Source: a virus | DNA length: 25,172 nt | Virus record (IMG/VR): IMGVR_UViG_3300032516_000187 | Location: 1-25,172 of that record | Strand: one strand, 5' to 3' | Part shown: positions 3,326-25,172 of the stretch, piece by piece | How the letters are laid out: each line of letters opens with the position of its first letter | Numbering within the stretch: position 1 is the stretch's first letter | Program-made: the position numbers and the translations under genes | The notes under the pieces: model-generated | Databases searched by the model: none | The model's input: only the letters and a program-made list of their open reading frames with translations | What the model was told of the DNA's origin: nothing

Positions 3326-3460
3326 GTGAACGCCGACGCAACCAGCGCCGCATGTGCCATTGTCGTGCCGCTGCCCACGCGACCCTCAGCTTTGCAACCT
3401 CATCAACCTATGATGCCGCCTTATGAGTCTTCTGACGGACTTGAAGCAGACGATCACTGA
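3326..3460 (+). CDS. Possible 44-residue ORF overlapping the terminase start
   Basis: A GTG at 3326, one base after the previous stop codon, opens a 44-codon frame that runs across the terminase ATG at 3423 and ends at TGA 3458-3460. The peptide is Pro/Ala-rich (VVPLPTRPSALQPHQPMMPP) with an acidic end. The terminase ATG has no good Shine-Dalgarno of its own, so a leader ORF that couples translation is possible. I recognise nothing in the product, and it may be chance. Confidence 0.25.
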   Translation: MNADATSAACAIVVPLPTRPSALQPHQPMMPPYESSDGLEADDH

Positions 3461-5081
3461 GGGGCTGAAGAACCAGACTCTCACGTCTTGCAGCCGTTGG
3501 GCTGAGCATCGCCGCGTGATGGGGGCACCGTTTGAGGGGAATTACAGCTTCCTTCGGCATCCCTGGTGCCGCGAGATACACGATAGCAAGGCGGCGTGGA
3601 CCATTGCCATGAAGGCCGCCCAGTTGGGCGTCACGGAGACCGGCATCAACCGGGCCTTCTACACGCTCGACCAGTTGCATCGGGATGTGCTTTACGTCCT
3701 GCCGACAATGATTAACGCGAGCGACTTTTCCAAGGCTAGGTTCACGCCGGCCCTGAAGTTGAGTCCTGTTCTCAAGGAGATGTTTGTCGATACGAATACG
3801 GTTGGGTTGAAATCAACCGGCCGCAACGTCCTCTACATTCGTGGGAGCCGTGGGGATAGCAACCTGAAGTCCATCCCGGTGTCCGAGTTGATCTTGGACG
3901 AACTGGATGAGATGGACATTCATGCGGTGTGGTTGGCGTTGGAGCGCCTGAGCGGCCAGGTCGAGAAGCACATCTTGGCGATGTCCACACCAACCGTGCC
4001 AAAATATGGCATCCACAAGTTGTACCTGACGGGCACCCAGGAACATTTTCATTTTTGTTGCCCACACTGCTCACGATGGACGGAACTGATCTGGCCGGAT
4101 TGCGTCGAGATCATCGGGGAATCGGTCAACGATCCACGGTGCAAGGAATCATTCCTCAAGTGTAAGGAATGCCAGCATCGACTGGAACACGCGGCGAAGA
4201 TCGAGTTTCTTGCCGGTGGGGTATGGCGGCCTACGGAGTTGCAGGCGTCTGACGAGAGGCGGAGCTTCTACATCAATCAGCTTTATTCGTCCACGGTGAC
4301 GCCGAGCGAGTTGGTGATTGCCTACCACCAGGGCTTGGGCGACGAGGCGGCGGCGACGGAGTTTCATTGCAGCAAGATCGGGATGCCTTTCATCGGGGAG
4401 GGTGCCCAGGTCACGGACGACATGATCGAAGCCTGTCTCCGGGGGCACACGATCAACGATCCGCGACCGCAGGTAGGCGGCACTCGTCTGATAACGATGG
4501 GAGTTGACCAGGGCAAGACGGGTTACATCTCGGTGGTGGAGTGGACTTTCGATCGGCCGCCGGGGAGCGACATCAATGCGGCGGCCATCGGCAAACTGCT
4601 GTGGTTCGGTCATTTTCCAGAGGATGGTTGGGACTACCTTGGGGACCTGATGCGGGAGTGGCAAGTCCTGGCTTGCCTGGTGGACGCCGATCCGAACATT
4701 AATGACGCCCGTCGTTTTGCTCGGAAGTTTCGGGGCTACGTTTGGCTCACGCGATACCGGCGGGGACAGACGGCCAAGGAAATCGCGATTCAAGAGGAGG
4801 AGACGGGAGCCCCGTTCGCCATCGTGGATCGGACAAGTTGGCTCAGTTGCACCCTGGGTCGGTTCAAGACGAAGCCCCCGCGAATCCTTTTGCCTCGGGA
4901 CATTTCACTGGAGTATCGTAATCACGTCAAGAATTTGGTGCGGACTTACGTGAAGGATGCGACCAAGAATCTGGCGGCCGTATTCGTGAATACTGGACCG
5001 GATCACTTTTGCCACTCACTTTGTTACGCTGACATTGGGTTGGCGCTGGCACCAACGAGCAGCGGCAGCGAAGACATCTGA
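3423..5081 (+). CDS. Phage terminase large subunit (GpA-like)
   Basis: The product is 552 residues. It is the ATPase-nuclease motor that packages DNA into the prohead, of the lambda gpA-like (PF05876-type) group. The ATPase domain shows a deviant Walker A, KAAQLGVTE (64-72), with the Lys at the front as in lambda gpA and not before the Thr. Walker B is LILDE (156-160), and a motif III-like AMSTP follows (186-190). Two CXXC pairs (213/216 and 247/250) form a probable zinc-binding insert. The RNase H-like nuclease has GVDQGKTGY (Asp362), CLVDADPN (Asp421) and a C-terminal HSLCYADIGLA with the third acidic residue. Length is normal. The portal gene follows 14 bp later. Function is very likely; the start at 3423 is supported by homology-like content only, as the Shine-Dalgarno is weak. 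Confidence 0.93.
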   Translation: MSLLTDLKQTITEGLKNQTLTSCSRWAEHRRVMGAPFEGNYSFLRHPWCREIHDSKAAWTIAMKAAQLGVTETGINRAFYTLDQLHRDVLYVLPTMINASDFSKARFTPALKLSPVLKEMFVDTNTVGLKSTGRNVLYIRGSRGDSNLKSIPVSELILDELDEMDIHAVWLALERLSGQVEKHILAMSTPTVPKYGIHKLYLTGTQEHFHFCCPHCSRWTELIWPDCVEIIGESVNDPRCKESFLKCKECQHRLEHAAKIEFLAGGVWRPTELQASDERRSFYINQLYSSTVTPSELVIAYHQGLGDEAAATEFHCSKIGMPFIGEGAQVTDDMIEACLRGHTINDPRPQVGGTRLITMGVDQGKTGYISVVEWTFDRPPGSDINAAAIGKLLWFGHFPEDGWDYLGDLMREWQVLACLVDADPNINDARRFARKFRGYVWLTRYRRGQTAKEIAIQEEETGAPFAIVDRTSWLSCTLGRFKTKPPRILLPRDISLEYRNHVKNLVRTYVKDATKNLAAVFVNTGPDHFCHSLCYADIGLALAPTSSGSEDI

Positions 5082-5095
5082 CGCGAGGTTGAGTT

Positions 5096-6907
5096 ATGCC
5101 GAATGCGGTCATCAATCTTGTTGATTCAAGATACCCGGGCTATCATTCCGGGCTGACGGATTGGACGAAGTGGCGGCTGGCCTACGACGGCGGGGAAGAG
5201 TTTCGAGACGCCTACCTGGAGAAGTTCTCGACACGCGAGGACCCGATAGAGTTTGCCACTCGTAAGGCGATGACGCCAATCCCGAAGTTTGCAGGCGCGG
5301 CGATCAATGACATCCGTAACGCCATTTACCAGCGTATGAGAGATATCACACGCAAGGGCGGCAGTTCGGCCTATCAGTCGGCGGTCCATGGTTTGAATCT
5401 GGGCGTGGATCGTCGGGGCGCGACCATGAATGCCTTTATTGGCGTCAAGGTTTTGACTGAATTGCTGGTCATGGGGCGGGTTGGCGTGTTCGTCGATGCC
5501 CCATTGGTGTCTCCGATGGCAACCTTGGCGGACGTAGGGAACGTCGCTCCGTACCTCTACAAGTACGACGTGGAGGACATCTTATCCTGGACCTGCTCGA
5601 AGCCTGACGCTCCATCCGAGTTTCAGGCCGTGCTGCTCCGGGACACGGTAATGCAGTTCGACCAGACGTACCTCCTGCCGACGCTTTCCGTGACTCGGTA
5701 TCGCTATCTCTGGATTGACACGGCCACGAACAAGGTCTACCTGCAATTCTATAATCTGGAAGGCACGCCGGTCGATCAATACGGCGAACCGGCGGGCCCT
5801 ATCGCGTTAGAATTAACGCGAATCCCGTTCGTATTGCTGGACATTAGTGGGAGCCTGATTAAGGACGTGGCCCAGCACCAGATCGCGCTCTTGAATCTTG
5901 GTTCAAGCGATGTGAGCTATGCCCTGCGGTCGAACTTTCCTTTCTACGTGGAGCAGAAGGACTTGCGGGCGGTAGGGGGCCACTTGAAGCACGCCGCTAC
6001 GGAAGATGGCACGGCGACCACGGGCGGCCAAGGGGCGATGGAGACGGACATCAAGGTGGGGGCGACCCACGGCCGGGCTTACGACAAAGGGATGCAGCAG
6101 CCGGCCTTCATCAATCCTTCGGCCGACCCCTTACGGGCTTCCTTAGAGCTTCAGGAGCGGCTCAAGCGGGACATTCGCGAACTGGTGAACCTTGCCGTGT
6201 CGAGCCTGGCGGTACGTGTCTCGGCGGAATCGAAGGCGATGGACAACCAGGGTCTTGAGGCGGGCCTGAGCTACATCGGGTTGCTTTTGGAGAGTGCCGA
6301 GCGGCAGATCGCCGAGTTTTGGGCGGTCTACGAAGAGCGGATCGTCACGAAGCGGCAGATTCCGACGATCAAGTACCCGGATCGTTATAGCCTGAAGACG
6401 GATGCTGACCGGATCAAGGAGGCGAATGACCTGTCGAAACTGATGAATCAGGTTCCGGGCCGCAAGGTGAAACGCGAGTTTGCGAAGGGAATCGTGCAGG
6501 CGATTCTCGGTGGAAAGATCAGTGTGGACGATCTTGACGAGATCAATCAGGAGATCGACGGCGCTCACTACACGAATAGCGATCCCCCGATGATTGTGCA
6601 AGCGGTCATCAATGGGCTTTGCGGCGAACAGACTGGTTCGATTGCCTTGGGTTTCGATAACGATGAACATCTCAAAGCACGAGCCGACCATGTGGAGCGC
6701 GTGAAGCGGATTGCAGAGGGGCAAGGAGTGGTTCGGGGAGGCGGCAGGAGTGACCCCGGGGCGCGTGGTGTGCCGGATTTGTCAGCCAATCCCAATGCTG
6801 GAGGAGACGAGAAGACAGCCAGTCGTGACGTGACGTTGCAAGATACGACGACTCCGAACGTGCGCGGTGCCGGTAAACCGAAACTAGGCGCGTTACCAGT
6901 AACCTAA
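5096..6907 (+). CDS. Portal protein, C-terminus replaced by IS insertion
   Basis: The product is 603 residues from ATG 5096, after GAGGTTGAG. It resembles siphovirus portal proteins of the DUF4055 type: an N-terminal DWTKWRLAYDG/FRDAYL region, MTPIPKFAGAAINDIRNAIYQR, YLYKYDVEDILSW, then RIPFVLLDISG and QIALLNLGSSDVSYAL. The portal ring forms the DNA channel and binds terminase and neck proteins. Position after the terminase supports the call. The C-terminal tail (about 545-603) is disordered and Gly/Asp-rich. The last few codons (GALPVT, stop) probably come from the IS: joining GG at 6887-6888 to GG at 8541-8542 would restore an in-frame end KLGDASFSVTV...SWIAV with a stop at 8616-8618. The present protein then lacks about 24 native residues. 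Portal identity is good; the reconstruction is inference. Confidence 0.8.
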   Translation: MPNAVINLVDSRYPGYHSGLTDWTKWRLAYDGGEEFRDAYLEKFSTREDPIEFATRKAMTPIPKFAGAAINDIRNAIYQRMRDITRKGGSSAYQSAVHGLNLGVDRRGATMNAFIGVKVLTELLVMGRVGVFVDAPLVSPMATLADVGNVAPYLYKYDVEDILSWTCSKPDAPSEFQAVLLRDTVMQFDQTYLLPTLSVTRYRYLWIDTATNKVYLQFYNLEGTPVDQYGEPAGPIALELTRIPFVLLDISGSLIKDVAQHQIALLNLGSSDVSYALRSNFPFYVEQKDLRAVGGHLKHAATEDGTATTGGQGAMETDIKVGATHGRAYDKGMQQPAFINPSADPLRASLELQERLKRDIRELVNLAVSSLAVRVSAESKAMDNQGLEAGLSYIGLLLESAERQIAEFWAVYEERIVTKRQIPTIKYPDRYSLKTDADRIKEANDLSKLMNQVPGRKVKREFAKGIVQAILGGKISVDDLDEINQEIDGAHYTNSDPPMIVQAVINGLCGEQTGSIALGFDNDEHLKARADHVERVKRIAEGQGVVRGGGRSDPGARGVPDLSANPNAGGDEKTASRDVTLQDTTTPNVRGAGKPKLGALPVT

Positions 6908-8542
6908 AACCCGGACACATCCAGACATTTGTGGGTTTCTAACAAGCTGGCGAGAATCTATTTCGGAGTCTGTAGCAAGACATTGCTTAGGTGGTCCAAC
7001 AATGGTTGCATCCGCTCGAAACAACTTCCCAGCCGACATTGGCGCTATTGGATTGCTGAGCAGTCCCGTGCGCGGGTCTGCTATTGCCGGGTTAGTTCCG
7101 CCAAACAGCGGGACGATCTTGCAAGACAGGTTGTTGCTTTGCGCAGCCAGTTTCCCACACACGAAGTTGTGCAAGACGTGGGTAGTGGACTTAACTGGAA
7201 GCGAAAGGGATTGCGCGCCTTATTGGAGTGAGTCTGTTGCGGCGAGATCAGCGAGATTGTGGTTGCCCACCGTGACCGACTATGCCGCTTCGGCTTCGAG
7301 CTTGTGGAGTGGCTTTGCACACGACACGGTTGCAAACTCGTGGTTCTCCACGCAGATAAGTGTTCACCCCAGCAGGAAATGGTTGAAGACTTGCTCTCCA
7401 TTGTCCACGTCTTCTCCTGCCGTCTTCACGGCCGGCGAAAGTACACACCGCTGCAAGCGAATCCGGCTGTTCCCAACATCGGAGCAGCGTCGGACGCTGA
7501 AGATGTGGTGCGGTGCCGCCCGCTGGTTCTACAACCAAGCGGTGGAGAAGCAGGTGAGCAACCGCATATCAGTGCAGGTAGCAATGCTGACTGCCTGCCC
7601 GGGGTGGGCAAAGTCTGTGCCGTACAAGATCAAGCAGATGGCGATTGAAGATGAAACCATTGCCCGAAAGAACGGTTTTAAGTTTGCCAAAAAGACGGCG
7701 CAAGCGTTTCACCTGTCGTTTCGCTCGAAGAAAATGCGGCGGGACAGCCTTTACATCCCAAAGCAAAGCGTGGGTCCGAACGGAATTTACCCGAGACTTC
7801 TCGGCAACATGAAGTCGGCCGAGCCTATTGTGCAGTCTGTGTATGATTGCCGGCTGCTCCACAACAACGGAAAGTTCTATCTTCTGGTTCCTTATGACAA
7901 GCCCAAGCGCGAGAACCAAGCCCAGGGTGAAGTCGCGGTCGATCCAGGCGTGCGGACCTTCCTCACTTTCTTTTCTCCCGACGTTGTTGGCAAGATCGGA
8001 GACCTGGCCATCAACAGGATTCAGCGTTTGTGTGCATGGATGGACAAGTTGGTGAGCCGGACGAAGTGGCGGGCAGCCCGCCGGATGCGCGAGCGCATCC
8101 AGAACCTCATCAGCGACCTACATCACAAAGCCGCGCTCTGGTTGGTGAAGAACTTTCGCACAATTGTCATTCCCAAGTTTGATGCGCGGGAAATGACGAT
8201 TCGCAAGGCGCGAAAGATCAACAGCAAGACTGCGCGGAAGATGCTTACGCTGGCCCACGGGCGGTTCAGGACAATCTTACTGGACAAGGCCGAGGAATGG
8301 GGGCGCACCATCGTCCACGTCTCGGAAGCCTACACCAGCAAAACCTGCTCGGTCTGTGGCAAGCAACATGTGATCGGCGGAAAGAAAGTGATGAACTGTT
8401 GTGAAAAGTACGACCGCGACATCAACGGCGCTCGTGGGATTTTCCTGCGGGCTTTGGTAGATACACCCTCCGGCGGCAACGTCGGTGCGCTGAAGGAGAC
8501 AGTTGCGGCATGTCCGCAATTGTCCACCCAGAAAGGTATCGG
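6887..8542 (+). mobile_element. IS607-family insertion in the portal gene 3' end
   Basis: An IS607-type element of about 1.65 kb with a serine-recombinase tnpA followed by an overlapping tnpB on the same strand. The right end is set by the loss of identity with the remnant copy after GG 8541-8542. The left end is proposed at GG 6887-6888 because excision there restores an open portal frame; other GG dinucleotides (for example 6912-6913) are possible. No terminal inverted repeats or target duplications are seen, as expected for this family. tnpA is broken, so self-mobility is doubtful. Confidence 0.75.
6929..7648 (+). pseudogene. tnpA: IS607 TnpA serine recombinase with in-frame TGA
   Basis: The reading frame starts at TTG 6929 with a MerR-like winged-helix domain (VSNKLARIYFGV, SKTLLRWSNNGCIRS). 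The small serine recombinase domain follows: VCYCRVSSAKQRDDL with the catalytic Ser in RVSS, then VQDVGSGLNWKRKGLRALLE. TGA at 7229-7231 ends it after 100 residues. The same frame continues at once with the expected rest of the enzyme (GEISEIVVAHRDRLCRFGFELVEWL, then VEDLLSIVHVFSCRLHG), so a single nonsense change is the whole lesion. Homology ends near 7445 although the frame stays open to 7648 over tnpB. TnpA would catalyse insertion and excision at GG. Unless TGA is read through, the element lacks its own recombinase. The lost GGH motif in the wing (RHWRYW) is also unusual. Confidence 0.85.
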
Positions 8543-8618
8543 CGATGCCAGTTTCTCTGTTACCGTCACGAAGACGGATGTGAGTGCGGGTAGTCAGTTT
8601 TCTTGGATCGCTGTTTAG
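7401..8618 (+). CDS. tnpB: TnpB RNA-guided nuclease with stop-loss extension
   Basis: The product is about 405 residues if started at TTG 7401; TTG 7383 is as good and the true start is uncertain. The N-terminal domain has CKRIRLFPTSEQRRTL and AARWFYNQAVE. RuvC-I is VAVDPGVRTF with the catalytic Asp. The RuvC-II region is RTIVIPKFDAREM, where Asp stands in the place usually held by Glu. The zinc finger is CSVCG followed by a CC pair, and RuvC-III is YDRDINGARGI. TnpB proteins are omega-RNA-guided DNA nucleases that help the element persist. In the remnant at 25-127 the protein ends after LST at TAG; here that codon is CAG (8529-8531), so 29 residues are added, reading out of the IS into the portal gene remainder (DASFSVTVTKTDVSAG, ending SWIAV). 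Whether the added tail harms activity is unknown. Confidence 0.85.
   Translation: MSTSSPAVFTAGESTHRCKRIRLFPTSEQRRTLKMWCGAARWFYNQAVEKQVSNRISVQVAMLTACPGWAKSVPYKIKQMAIEDETIARKNGFKFAKKTAQAFHLSFRSKKMRRDSLYIPKQSVGPNGIYPRLLGNMKSAEPIVQSVYDCRLLHNNGKFYLLVPYDKPKRENQAQGEVAVDPGVRTFLTFFSPDVVGKIGDLAINRIQRLCAWMDKLVSRTKWRAARRMRERIQNLISDLHHKAALWLVKNFRTIVIPKFDAREMTIRKARKINSKTARKMLTLAHGRFRTILLDKAEEWGRTIVHVSEAYTSKTCSVCGKQHVIGGKKVMNCCEKYDRDINGARGIFLRALVDTPSGGNVGALKETVAACPQLSTQKGIGDASFSVTVTKTDVSAGSQFSWIAV
8543..8618 (+). pseudogene. Displaced 3' end of the portal gene
   Basis: The 76 bp between the IS right end and TAG 8616-8618 remain open in the frame that would continue the portal if GG 8541-8542 were fused to GG 6887-6888. 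They encode about 24 residues rich in Ser, Thr and Val and ending SWIAV. They are now read only as the tail of TnpB. There is no start codon with a ribosome site for independent expression. The interpretation rests on frame continuity and position; no homologue was searched. Confidence 0.45.
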
Positions 8619-9174: not shown

Positions 9175-9273
9175 GTGCGTGGCCAACTTTACCGGCGACT
9201 GTCCGGGTCAGACTCCGCGAAGACACGATAAGCGGGACTCTGTTATTGTTCATCGTGGTTGAGGAGTGTGCGA

Positions 9274-10119
9274 ATGTTCAATTCTGTTTATCTGTCCCGT
9301 CCGTGGTCGGCGTGTTTCGAGGGTGATGATGAGGCCGCGAAGGCTGTTGCCGCTGTTGCCGCGAAGGCTGCTGCCGAGGCCGTTGCTAACGCCGGCAACC
9401 TGACTAAAGTGTTTAGTCAGGAGGAACTGAATCATATTCTTGCGGAGGATCGCCGCAAGCACCAGACGCAACTCAAGGAGCAGGCCGAAAAGCTGGAAGT
9501 GGTGCTCAAGAGCAGCCAGTTGACCGAACAGGATCGGAAGGCGTTGCAGGAAAACCTCGGGTCTGTCCAAGGTCAGTTGCGGTCGGCGGAGGCCCAGGCC
9601 GCCAGGGAAAAACAGGAGTTGGAGCATTCGTACCAAGCTCGGCTGGCCGACGTGGAAAAGAGGGCAACCACCTGGGAGGTGATGTATCGTGACTCCACGG
9701 TTCAGCGAGCGCTGCAAGATGCGGCTGTGACGAATGACGCTTTCAGCGCAAGTCAGATCGTCACGATTTTGAAGCCTCTGACAAAGCTGGTTGAGGGCGT
9801 TGATCCGGTGACGAAGCGACCTAACGGAAGCTATGAAGTCAAGATCGAGATGATGGATGTCAATCCGAAAACTAATGAACTGGAACCGACGGTGCGCAGC
9901 CCTGAAGAGGCGGTGAAGCGGATGAAGGAGTTGCCTGCGCAGTATGGCAACCTCTTCAAGTCTGGCGTCGTCTCGGGTATCGGTTCCGGTTCGGCCACCG
10001 GCGGCCTTACGTCGGGTCAAGGCGGCAAGCTCGACGTGCGGAAATTGACTCCGCAACAGTATCGAGAGATTCGAGCCAAGAACCCTGAATTGCTCGGTCT
10101 CGCTTCCAAGCGCCGCTAA
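9274..10119 (+). CDS. Capsid scaffold-like protein
   Basis: The product is 281 residues; GAGGAG at 9261-9265 precedes ATG 9274. An N-terminal peptide NSVYLSRPWSACFE (about 3-16) is followed by an Ala-rich stretch. A long coiled coil comes next (about 55-140, with RRKHQTQLKEQAEKLEVVLK and EAQAAREKQELEHS). After it comes ERATTWEVMYRDSTVQRALQDAAV, typical of phage scaffolds, and a basic C-terminus LTPQQYREIRAKNPELLGL that resembles the coat-binding tail of scaffold proteins. It lies directly before the coat gene, the usual place. Scaffolds direct prohead assembly and leave before or during packaging. The N-terminal peptide is shared with the coat protein, which is unusual and is discussed as a finding. 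Confidence 0.8.
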   Translation: MFNSVYLSRPWSACFEGDDEAAKAVAAVAAKAAAEAVANAGNLTKVFSQEELNHILAEDRRKHQTQLKEQAEKLEVVLKSSQLTEQDRKALQENLGSVQGQLRSAEAQAAREKQELEHSYQARLADVEKRATTWEVMYRDSTVQRALQDAAVTNDAFSASQIVTILKPLTKLVEGVDPVTKRPNGSYEVKIEMMDVNPKTNELEPTVRSPEEAVKRMKELPAQYGNLFKSGVVSGIGSGSATGGLTSGQGGKLDVRKLTPQQYREIRAKNPELLGLASKRR

Positions 10120-10215
10120 CCTGCTCAGGGGTCGGTGAAAGGTTGCTCTAGCGACTGGTGAGTCATGGTGACTTACAGCGCTTTTGAGCAAAAGTCAACA
10201 TTGGAGTGTAATCCT

Positions 10216-11631
10216 ATGAATTCCCTCTACCTCTCTCGGCCCTTTGTGGCTTGCTTCGAGAACAATCTGGACGCCTATATCCCGGAGTTGTGGGCGAACG
10301 AGGGTCTGGCTATCCTCGAAGAGAATATGGTCATGGCGAACCTGGTTCACCGTGACTTCGAGAACACCATCGCCAAGTTCGGCGATGTCGTGAACACGCG
10401 GAAGCCCGGCGAGTTCAAGATCAGTCGAAAAACGGACGGCACTACCCTCGTGCAGGAAGACGCCGTTGCAACCAATGTGCCGGTGCCGTTGGATCAGTGG
10501 TTCTACAAGTCGTTCGTGATCCGTGACGGTGAAGGCAGCAAGTCCTTCCAGGAGTTGACCGACATCTACCTCCGGCCGGCGATGCAGTCCATCGCGCGAG
10601 GCATCGACCGCTCCCTTTTGGGGCGCGTTCATGCTTACCTCGGTGCGCCTGCGGCTCGCGTTGGCAAGTTGGGCGGCCTCACCTCTTCGACGGCCAAGGA
10701 TTATGTTCTGGATGCCCGTGAGCGGCTGAACATCAACAAAGCCCCGATGGAAAGCCGGCGGCTGGTCATGGCCCCCACGAGCGAAACGGCCATGCTCAAG
10801 ACCGACATCTTTCTCAAGGCGAACGAGCGCGGCGACGGTGGGACGGCGCTGGAGACTGCGACCCTGGGCCGCATCCTCGGCTTCGACACCTTCATGTGCC
10901 AGAACGTCAATTGCGTTCTGAGTGGGGGCGACATCAGCGCCACCGCCATCACCCTCACCGAGGCGTATGCGGCCGGAGAGGCTGGGGCGCTGGCTGCCGC
11001 GAGCATTGGGGTGGAACTGGTCACTGGTGAATACTTCACCGTGGCTGGCAACGATCAGCCGACTTGGGCCCTTGACCAAGTGGCCTCCACCTCGGTCACC
11101 TTGAACGAGGCCCTGAAGTACGCCACGTTGGATAACGCGGTGTGCTATCGCTACAAGAAGTGCGTGAATGAGGCCACGGAGCGGGCTGCGGGCTACAGCA
11201 AGGCGATGACGTTCACGCACACGGCGGGCAAGTATCTGCAGGTTGGTCAGTTGCTCGCCTTCGGTGTCACTTTGGGCCTCCGTCACACCTACACGATCAT
11301 CGAGGCGACGGTGGTTGATTCGACGCATACCACAGTCCTCTTGGATCGGCCGCTGGCGGTACTCGTGGCGAGCGGCGCGAATGCGTTTCCCGGCCCCTAC
11401 GGGTCGCTGAACCTGGCGTTCCATCGGGACGCCCTGGCCTTGGTCACCCGACCGCTGGCCCTCCCGGATACCCGGATGGGCGTCATGGCCGCCGTGGTTC
11501 CGCACAACGGGATCGGGATGCGGGTTCTGATGCAGTATGACATCAATGCGGGCGGCGTGGTCGTCAACTGCGACATCCTCGCGGGTGTGGCGGTTCTCGA
11601 CAGCGGGCTGCTCGTGCCGGTGCTCGGCTAA
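10216..11631 (+). CDS. Major capsid protein, P22 coat-like
   Basis: The product is 471 residues from ATG 10216 with GGAG at 10203-10206; the in-frame ATG at 10165 has no ribosome site. It starts NSLYLSRPFVACFE, the same peptide as the scaffold. ANEGLAILEENMVMANLVHRDFE and FGDVVNTRKPGEFKI are typical of the coat N-arm and E-loop in the P22 coat group (PF11651-like), as are the closing LAFHRDALALVTRPLALPD, GIGMRVLMQYDI and CDILAGVAVLD. A variable inserted domain (about 235-400) holds the part that differs between phages. HK97-fold coat proteins build the icosahedral shell. A terminator directly follows, so high expression of scaffold and coat as a unit is likely. No maturation protease gene is seen nearby. 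Confidence 0.85.
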   Translation: MNSLYLSRPFVACFENNLDAYIPELWANEGLAILEENMVMANLVHRDFENTIAKFGDVVNTRKPGEFKISRKTDGTTLVQEDAVATNVPVPLDQWFYKSFVIRDGEGSKSFQELTDIYLRPAMQSIARGIDRSLLGRVHAYLGAPAARVGKLGGLTSSTAKDYVLDARERLNINKAPMESRRLVMAPTSETAMLKTDIFLKANERGDGGTALETATLGRILGFDTFMCQNVNCVLSGGDISATAITLTEAYAAGEAGALAAASIGVELVTGEYFTVAGNDQPTWALDQVASTSVTLNEALKYATLDNAVCYRYKKCVNEATERAAGYSKAMTFTHTAGKYLQVGQLLAFGVTLGLRHTYTIIEATVVDSTHTTVLLDRPLAVLVASGANAFPGPYGSLNLAFHRDALALVTRPLALPDTRMGVMAAVVPHNGIGMRVLMQYDINAGGVVVNCDILAGVAVLDSGLLVPVLG

Positions 11632-13144: not shown

Positions 13145-13885
13145 ATGGCACGCATCGAGCTAAGACACTGCGATGTCATTCTGCAAGACGGCCTCAGCGG
13201 CGTGGCGAAGATTGACGATGTTACTCCGCCAGTTGAGACTGACACTAGCACGACGATCAACGAGGTGGTTTTGAATACGGCCGACACCGATAAGGTGCCG
13301 GTTGGGGCACGTTTTACGATGGCTGGGGAAACTGCTGCCACGACGGTTCACACCGTCACGGCGCGAACGCCGTCCAGTGCCGGGCCCACCACCGCTATCA
13401 CCTTCACACCAGCGCTTGGCGTGGGGACGTATCTTGATGACGGGGTGCTTACCTTCCTGCCGCAGCAACTTGACATCAAGGTCGGCGAAGGCAATTTGAC
13501 CTACACCGAGCACAACGAGTACCAGTATCTCTTGGATCGCGGCGATCTGGATACGGTTCGCGAGGGCAACCAGGTGCCGATGGATGTGAAGCTGGAATGC
13601 GTTTTCGAGCACATTACCACTGGTACGTCGGAGACGATTAGCCCGTTGGATGCTTTGAAGGGCATCAAAGCGGCTGTTGAGTGGGTCAATGCTTCGGCCG
13701 ATCCGTGCGAGCCGTACTGTGTGGACCTGATTATCGTATACACCCCGCCGTGTGGTGTGGCGCAAGTGGAAACCACGACATTCCCGGAGTTCCGCTCGGA
13801 GCAGCGGGAAATCAATTACAAGGACGCCACCATTGCCGTGACCGGCAAGTGCAAAGTTATCGAACCCATCGTGGTCCGAAGCTAA
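13145..13885 (+). CDS. Major tail (tube) protein, copy 1
   Basis: The product is 246 residues; GAGGACAGAGG stands before ATG 13145. It begins MARIELR.C.VILQDG, has a VPVGARFTMAG strand region, and a conserved core from LPQQLDIKVGEGNLTYTEHN to DATIAVTGKCKVIEPIVV. Beta-rich content, place before chaperone and tape measure, and a tandem paralogue identify it as the tail-tube subunit. Tube proteins polymerise as hexamer rings around the tape measure. It contains conserved cysteines (DPCEPYC, PPCG, TGKCK). The 100-bp leader from 13046 holds no gene or clear hairpin with a T tract. Copy 2 follows after 10 bp. Confidence 0.8.
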   Translation: MARIELRHCDVILQDGLSGVAKIDDVTPPVETDTSTTINEVVLNTADTDKVPVGARFTMAGETAATTVHTVTARTPSSAGPTTAITFTPALGVGTYLDDGVLTFLPQQLDIKVGEGNLTYTEHNEYQYLLDRGDLDTVREGNQVPMDVKLECVFEHITTGTSETISPLDALKGIKAAVEWVNASADPCEPYCVDLIIVYTPPCGVAQVETTTFPEFRSEQREINYKDATIAVTGKCKVIEPIVVRS

Positions 13886-13895: not shown

Positions 13896-14918
13896 ATGGC
13901 CAGGATAGAGTTGAGAAATTGCAGTGTGATTCTTCAGGACGGCTTCGGCGGCACTGCGGCTATCAATGATACGCCGGCCAATGAAGACGCCGTGACGGAG
14001 ATTGATACCGTAGCAGCGTTGACGAACAACACGACCATTGTCCCTGTGGGTGCCCGCTTCACGGTCGCAGGGCATTCGACTACGCGCGTCGTAATGTCTG
14101 TCAACAGTAACGAGGTGCAAACCGTCACTATTGATGCCACGAGTGGGCATTTTCATGTGCTCTTTGGTGGGCAGACCAGCGGGGCAATCAGTTTCGATGC
14201 AACTGCCGCCGCAATGCAAGTGCTTTTGGCAGCTATGTCGAGCATCGGTGCCGGCAATGTGAGTGTCAGTGGTGCCGCAGGGGGTCCTTACACGGTCGAG
14301 TTCCAAGGAACCCTTGCTAACGCCAACCAAGCTACTATGACAACGGACGCAACGGCACTGGTAGGTGGGGGTACAACTGCGCTGGTGGCCGTGGTTCACG
14401 AGGGCGGCACAACTTGGCAAATTGGTTTCTCGCCTCTGTTTCTGACAGCCGATCTACCGAGCAACGATGATGCGATTACCTTCCTGCCGCAGCAACTCGA
14501 AATCAAGGTCGGCGAAGGCAATTTGACCTACACCGAGCACAACGAGTACCAGTATCTCCTGGATCGGGGTGACCTGGATACTGTCCGTGAAGGCAACCAG
14601 GTGCCGATGGATTTGAAGTTGGAGTGTGTCTTTGAGCATATCACCACGGGCACGTCGGAAGAGATGAGTCCGTTGGATGCCTTGAAAGGTGTCGGTGCGG
14701 CCGACACGTGGGTCAATGCCTCGGCTGATCCGTGTGAGCCGTATTGCATAGACATCATTGTTCTACACACCCCGCCGTGCGGCGCAGTGCAACTGGAGCG
14801 CGTGACGTTCCCTGACTTCCGCTCGGAACAACGGGAAATCAACTACAAGGATGCCACATTTGCCATCACTGGCAAGTGCAAGGCGGTGGAACCCACCGTT
14901 GTGCGCGAAACGGCATAA
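13896..14918 (+). CDS. Tail tube protein, copy 2, with inserted beta domain
   Basis: The product is 340 residues and a paralogue of the preceding gene: same start (MARIELRNCSVILQDG), same VPVGARFTVAG, and a nearly identical C-terminal 145 residues. It is 94 residues longer because of an insert at about 72-169 (VQTVTIDATSGHFHVLFGG, AISFDATAAAMQVLLAAMSS, GNVSVSGAAGGPYTVEFQG). That insert matches a domain common in phage and bacterial surface proteins, of the form tFtLtfnGqtT...AAaAvQaALeaLssiG.gNVtVtG..GGPYTVtFtG. It sits between two strands of the parent fold, so it would project from the tube surface. The product may alternate with copy 1 as a decorated subunit, or be a minor tail protein. 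The gene ends in a strong terminator. Confidence 0.8.
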   Translation: MARIELRNCSVILQDGFGGTAAINDTPANEDAVTEIDTVAALTNNTTIVPVGARFTVAGHSTTRVVMSVNSNEVQTVTIDATSGHFHVLFGGQTSGAISFDATAAAMQVLLAAMSSIGAGNVSVSGAAGGPYTVEFQGTLANANQATMTTDATALVGGGTTALVAVVHEGGTTWQIGFSPLFLTADLPSNDDAITFLPQQLEIKVGEGNLTYTEHNEYQYLLDRGDLDTVREGNQVPMDLKLECVFEHITTGTSEEMSPLDALKGVGAADTWVNASADPCEPYCIDIIVLHTPPCGAVQLERVTFPDFRSEQREINYKDATFAITGKCKAVEPTVVRETA

Positions 14919-24820: not shown

Positions 24821-25172
24821 ATGCGCGCAACGCGGCTGGTTATTGAAGTGCTTGGTCGCGGCGCTACAGATGCGTTGCGAGCGACTCGGCTGGGCATTGA
24901 GGTTTTAGGACGCGGTGCCGTTGACGCGACAAGGGTTAGTCGCGTCAGCCTGGAAGTATTGGGTGCGCTGCCGGACTCTTGGCTTCAAACGAGTCGCGTC
25001 AGCCTGGAAGTGCTGGGTGCGCTGCCGGACTCTTGGCTTCAAACGAGTCGCGTCAGCCTGGAAGTATTGGGTGCGCTGCCGGACTCTTGGCTTCAAACGA
25101 GTCGCGTCAGCCTGGAAGTGCTGGGTGCGCTGCCGGACTCTTGGCTTCAAACGAGTCGCGTCAGCCTGGAAG
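24821..25172 (+). CDS. EVLG-repeat protein, truncated by the window end
   Basis: ATG 24821 opens a frame with no stop to the end of the window (117 codons). It starts MRATRLVIEVLGRGATDA, LRATRLGIEVLGRGAVDA, then four complete repeats of SRVSLEVLGALPDSWLQT and the start of a fifth. The first motifs match the N-terminus of the protein at 21670 (RVTRQYVEVLG), so this is probably a second member of that family whose further repeats and C-terminal domain lie outside. Short R(V/A)T....EVL repeats occur in other phage tail proteins as linkers. There is no strong Shine-Dalgarno; the start lies four bases after the previous stop, so coupled translation is likely. Confidence 0.7.
   Translation, partial: MRATRLVIEVLGRGATDALRATRLGIEVLGRGAVDATRVSRVSLEVLGALPDSWLQTSRVSLEVLGALPDSWLQTSRVSLEVLGALPDSWLQTSRVSLEVLGALPDSWLQTSRVSLE
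24938..25172 (+). repeat. 54-bp in-frame tandem repeat array
   Basis: Four complete 54-bp units start at 24938, 24992, 25046 and 25100, and a fifth starts at 25154 and is cut at 19 bases. Each encodes 18 residues. Units 1 and 3 read GTATTG where units 2 and 4 read GTGCTG, and otherwise I see no difference, so the array has a 108-bp higher-order period. The window end inside the array may be an assembly limit. Confidence 0.95.

Follow-up and report, generated by a model that had tools for sequence, protein, structure and literature searches.

A matched N-terminal leader, probably a removable pro-peptide, on the coat and scaffolding proteins of an uncultured phage lineage

The scaffolding protein and the major coat protein of the phage analysed here begin with a common peptide, which is probably a removable leader (pro-peptide) that co-evolves on both proteins under one recogniser. 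Coat, scaffold and, in some lineages, a tail protein would be made with a leader of ~10-15 residues that ends in a small residue (mostly Cys) followed by an aromatic residue. We infer that one common protease recognises this leader and cuts it after the aromatic residue, at [FY]'[AEDG] (apostrophes mark cuts, proposed ones in this lineage), which would leave the same N-terminus as that of leaderless homologues. All substrates in a phage have to be recognised by one enzyme, so that a shift in its specificity would change the leaders together. The enzyme may be a phage C39/papain-like protein, or a host protease used as Staphylococcus phage 80alpha uses Prp. The leader family occurs in a large group of uncultured tailed phages, where the enzyme is probably different from that of 80alpha.

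The shared peptide on scaffold and coat

The DNA comes from an IMG/VR virus record, and its full length of 25,172 bases is referred to here as the window. The head genes and leaders discussed below are as follows.

3423..5081, + strand: terminase large subunit gene (PF05876, phrog_675)
5096..6907, + strand: portal protein gene, without leader (phrog_145, E 3e-28)
9274..10119, + strand: scaffolding protein gene (phrog_206 head scaffolding protein, E 1.8e-7; alignment; GAGGAG 9261-9266)
9274..9318, + strand: scaffold leader MFNSVYLSRPWSACF, proposed cut F'E (sequence; covariation with the coat leader in 83 loci)
10216..11631, + strand: major coat protein gene, P22 fold (PF11651 P22_CoatProtein, E 9.7e-33; phrog_283; Foldseek)
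10216..10257, + strand: coat leader MNSLYLSRPFVACF, proposed cut F'E (sequence; outside the P22 coat profile; AlphaFold2)

The scaffold ORF opens at ATG 9274 with MFNSVYLSRPWSACFEGDD, behind the good Shine-Dalgarno sequence GAGGAG (9261-9266), and the coat ORF opens at ATG 10216 with MNSLYLSRPFVACFENN (also written MNSLYLSRPFVACFENNLDAYIPELW), behind the ribosome-binding site GGAG at 10203-10206. The original prediction had named these genes as scaffold and coat and had described 11 identical residues among 14 at their N-termini, with different synonymous codons at 8 of the 11. The profile matches bear out the gene identities, and both counts were reproduced from the two ORFs. A true start downstream of the motif is excluded for both genes, because the coat body follows directly after the leader and the scaffold body is preceded by no start other than this one. 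The ungapped local alignment score between the two N-termini was 64. Six related phage contigs supplied 638 control N-termini, all of which scored lower (mean 12, 95th percentile 18). A scan of N-termini in the window and in six long contigs found the leader on coat and scaffold only, plus the tail protein of contig G010. Other partial matches, such as the MRIPRSLSYSS N-terminus of a nuclease-like protein, were judged coincidental.

Both profile match (PF11651) and fold place the coat among the P22-like coats, and the best Foldseek matches of its model were the P22, Sf6 and CUS-3 coats. These have the same fold, ahead of which the coat studied here has an extra N-terminal leader. The leader falls outside the P22 coat profile match. 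In the AlphaFold2 model, a single chain built with 72 coats as input, residues 1-20 were disordered (block pLDDT 51-55) and the fold began right after them. In many coats the leader directly precedes ANDNDAFIPELW, and the leaderless homologue of MaAM05 starts at the same point (MATANFIPEIW). The scaffold leader is followed by an acidic, Gly/Ala-rich linker.

Two further elements of the window were noted. A transposon-like insert lies between the portal and adaptor genes (6929-8618); it encodes a TnpB/OrfB-type protein (PF07282, PF12323) and has a short ORF that resembles a recombinase. The end of the record (24821-25171) consists of tandem repeats of the type SRVSLEVLGALPDSWLQT.

Co-variation of the leaders across the lineage

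A coat-based scan yielded 80 viral loci and one contig of a metagenome-assembled genome (MAG) labelled Anaerolinea; three further scans used coat bodies without leader as query, as a guard against bias. The peptide was present at both starts across related phages. Every locus of the lineage in which both starts were readable had the leader on both proteins, and none had it on one protein only. The match between scaffold and coat N-termini exceeded the 95th percentile of the null in 74 of 83 non-redundant loci. The nine weak loci comprised three with a mis-called scaffold start (L200, L257, L275), two with the leader outside the coat window (L156, L162) and four with short leaders that match by eye. 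In contrast, P22-coat relatives that do not belong to this lineage (Hiyaa, VanLee, SSP002, MaAM05, PBR31, 36E38.1, vir515 and Javan262) have the leader on neither protein.

The consensus of the leader family is roughly LYLSxPxxACF/Y'(E/A/D). The residue before the inferred cut is F or Y in 79 coats and 77 scaffolds out of 83 each, and Cys stands ahead of it in 70 and 64, respectively. The P1' residue is mostly A or E in coats, and E or D in scaffolds. A lipobox reading of the leader was rejected, since not every leader has the Cys and a hydrophobic stretch long enough for a signal is lacking.

The leaders differ greatly among phages and match inside each phage. Examples of matched leader pairs (coat/scaffold) are ADAFIVCY/ADAFIVCF in L191, PVVSLY/PVVSLY in L226, LKVRVACF/LKVRLACF in L200, VRYACY/VRFACY in L044, RLIAK/PFIAR in L281 and VLR/VCR in L065. 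The covariation was quantified over the 83 non-redundant loci from ungapped local alignment scores; gene starts were chosen by their Shine-Dalgarno sequences. Coat leaders scored 37.4 against the scaffold of their own locus and 25.7 against the scaffolds of other loci; the highest value among 10,000 permutations was 29.1. The within-locus excess was zero among close relatives and reached ~13 at 40-50% divergence of the coat body. Of 29 phylogenetically independent pairs, 25 showed a positive excess, 3 a negative one and 1 none (25 of 28 non-tied pairs, binomial p 1.4e-5; Wilcoxon p 1.7e-5). Independent evolution after one old duplication would have made own and foreign scaffold leaders equally similar, which was not observed.

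A cause at the DNA level, either a duplicated 5' segment homogenised by gene conversion or an RNA regulatory element shared by the two starts, could also produce matching ends, and with the two copies ~940 bp apart recombination is possible. However, identical leader residues used the same codon in 40% of cases within loci (208/519) and in 39% between loci, both below the 50% expected from codon usage. The lack of a within-locus excess indicates that the matching is kept at the protein level and not by gene conversion, which the codon test rejects; a DNA-level cause is extremely improbable. Thus, selection acts on the peptide and not on the DNA, as the original prediction had proposed, and the covariation across loci and the codon test agree on this point.

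Some loci of the lineage carry inserts near the leader. The coat gene is split right after the leader (~LDAYIPEL) by an insert of ~630-690 nt in L036 (6070-6698) and L054 (6065-6725), in both of which Rfam recognised a group I intron; the coat gene is likewise interrupted in L008, L038, L039 and L042. HNH-type ORFs stand ahead of the coat body in L230 and L232, and a GIY-YIG-like ORF lies between scaffold and coat in L204/L206.

The leader on tail proteins

The window encodes two tail proteins of one family (MARIELR...) in tandem, an arrangement with two copies that is also seen in many relatives.

13145..13885, + strand: tail protein MARIELRH..., leaderless here (leaderless homologue of the L048, L065, L070 and L072 tail proteins)
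13896..14918, + strand: second tail protein copy MARIELRN..., leaderless here (phrog tail matches)

The usual N-terminus of this tail protein is M-ARIELRD. In four lineages (L048, L065, L070, L072) a leader stands directly before ARIELRD or ARIDLRN, and has thus appeared independently on a third protein. The L048 tail protein reads MNKLYLSKSVVGCY'ARIELRD, in which LYLSKSVVGCY'ARIELRD compares with LYLSKSVESCY'GPEE of the scaffold. In L072 the tail protein reads MNCYLSTPCIAAF'ARIDLRN, with CIAAF'ARIDLRN against FIAAF'DGDD of the scaffold, and in L070 it reads MIDSLYLANPQLVNY'ARIELRD. In L065 the tail protein (MFLNPVLVCR'ARIELRD), the scaffold (LAVLVCR'DNDD) and the coat (MLVLR'ANDN) all have an unusual Arg before the proposed cut, where the others have F or Y. 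The match of the tail leader to its own scaffold was better than that to ~99% of scaffold leaders in three of the four lineages; the L070 tail leader matched its own coat and scaffold only averagely. The leader is the sole part common to coat, scaffold and tail protein, and its junction falls on the leaderless N-terminus.

A leader on the tail protein with this exact junction is predicted by a shared processing signal and not by a head-nucleation tag. The original prediction had suggested a common address tag that recruits scaffold and coat to the same partner (portal, a protease or each other) as the prohead nucleates. A common partner is still the natural reading, and the protease was among the partners listed. 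The tag directed at the portal or at each other is less likely, and fits poorly because the peptide also occurs on the tail protein in four lineages, exactly before the leaderless N-terminus.

Alternatively, the peptide might be a permanent N-arm, with coat and scaffold peptides binding one pocket on coat or portal and the scaffold copy serving as a placeholder that the coat copy displaces at maturation. Two ligands of one co-evolving pocket would covary alike. Moreover, 80alpha with uncleavable coat and scaffold is viable and its scaffold made without leader gives no assembly; this N-terminus is essential even if uncleavable (PMC5744158). However, docking in the head makes no sense for a tail protein leader, found in four lineages; residues 1-20 did not pack against the coat body in the AlphaFold2 monomer; and the end of the leader coincides with the start of leaderless homologues. 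We consider such docking quite unlikely.

The leader could also act as a tag that binds a host chaperone or membrane site and gathers new structural proteins, either uncut or cut incidentally. This possibility has been raised for 80alpha, where a common chaperone is one proposed reason why the scaffold needs its leader (PMC5744158), and it fits a leader common to head and tail proteins. A tag of this kind alone would not account for why the leader ends so sharply, after an aromatic residue and directly at the native N-terminus, or for the residue-level matching, such as the Arg in all three L065 proteins, and is very unlikely. A removable leader would be compatible with a transient chaperone or regulatory role before its removal, by analogy with what was raised for 80alpha.

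Known systems and candidate enzymes

The original prediction knew of no described phage system with this arrangement. It is in fact already known from 80alpha, in which scaffold (ENKLKFNLQFF'ADQS) and coat (KLKLNLQHF'ASNN), like the ribosomal protein L27 (MLKLNLQFF'ASKK), have a common leader that the host protease Prp removes (PMC9405229 Table 1; PMC5744158); the leader family described here is a different one. As in the 80alpha gp47 coat and gp46 scaffold, whose leaders have ~13-14 residues, both proteins bear the same leader and it ends in an aromatic P1 residue, here at the inferred site. As in the 80alpha/Prp group, a tail protein can carry the motif too, the case there being the major tail protein of phi13 with its 80alpha-type leader (PMC5744158, PMC9405229). 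In contrast to 80alpha, the leaders of this lineage are unrelated to LKLNLQFF'A, vary highly among phages and have mostly Cys at P2, and the coat has the P22 fold.

The cut could be made by a host Prp, as in 80alpha but in other hosts, which would be a special case of the removable leader. The arrangement is the same, P1 is aromatic, and Ala is common at P1' of coats and tail protein. A true Prp motif is also present on the scaffold of Aeribacillus phage AP45, a P22-coat relative, where RLNLQFFAEGG stands right before a Gly/acidic linker, as the leader does here; the AP45 coat differs in being leaderless (MAINNFIPTVW), and its scaffold motif in matching the Prp consensus. Against a host Prp, the leaders of this lineage lack the consensus MLxx(D/N)LQ(F/L)F'A. 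Searches for Prp (PF04327) gave no hit in 19 phage contigs or in 121 genomes from the phylum assigned to the one relative with a host label, the Anaerolinea MAG, whose binning may be wrong; readable L27 N-termini in that phylum had no leader. Host Prp is an unlikely enzyme here.

No prohead-protease gene was recognised between the terminase large subunit and coat genes of the window, and no classical prohead protease among the conserved genes tested. A candidate protease is a conserved 166-aa phage protein in which Cys12, His120 and Asp131 are invariant (15 sequences) and stand in papain-fold order. Its AlphaFold2 model (pLDDT 91) had PCAT1 as best Foldseek match, followed by staphopain among others. 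PCAT1 is an ABC transporter that contains a C39 leader-peptidase domain. The phage protein, a putative peptidase, resembles it in its modelled C39 fold and invariant Cys-His-Asp; it differs in standing alone, without a transporter, and in that the leaders end in an aromatic residue and not in Gly-Gly. It matched no curated family in Pfam, PHROG or NCBIfam.

Of the 19 long contigs from the lineage, 18 have the C39-like gene, the MAG phage contig among them. Nine untagged relatives were all without it, and a search of the INPHARED collection gave no record that has it. It is missing from G011, an 83-kb contig with matching leaders that have Leu and not Cys before the aromatic residue. The gene sits outside the structural module. 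Its co-occurrence with the leader is no more than an association, as every core gene of the lineage would show the same pattern. The identification of this protein as the enzyme is tentative. The fuller proposal, that a phage-encoded stand-alone C39-like peptidase cuts the co-evolving leaders of coat, scaffold and some tail proteins while enzyme and leader specificity drift together, is doubtful. If true, a stand-alone C39-like leader peptidase would represent a new class of virion maturation protease in a large uncultured phage lineage; our literature search found no paper on C39 peptidases and capsid leaders.

In 80alpha it is a puzzle why assembly needs the scaffold N-terminus when the cut can be dispensed with (PMC5744158). 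The lineage described here offers a large natural experiment, with leader pairs that are matched yet diverse in sequence and apparently an unrelated solution. As a third substrate, the tail protein helps to locate the cut, and there is a candidate for the enzyme. This makes it testable why several assembling proteins carry one leader and which protease drives the co-evolution. Such phages might also be assigned to hosts, or to a protease of their own, with the aid of their leader sequence.

The window also encodes, at 88-696, a Cys/His protein of papain-like appearance behind a lipoprotein-like N-terminus; it is without family match and is present in four of six long relatives. In contig G017 (L295:1501-2697) a sigma-factor-like domain and the C39-like protein share one reading frame, and in contig G001 a weakly sigma-70-like gene adjoins the C39-like gene.
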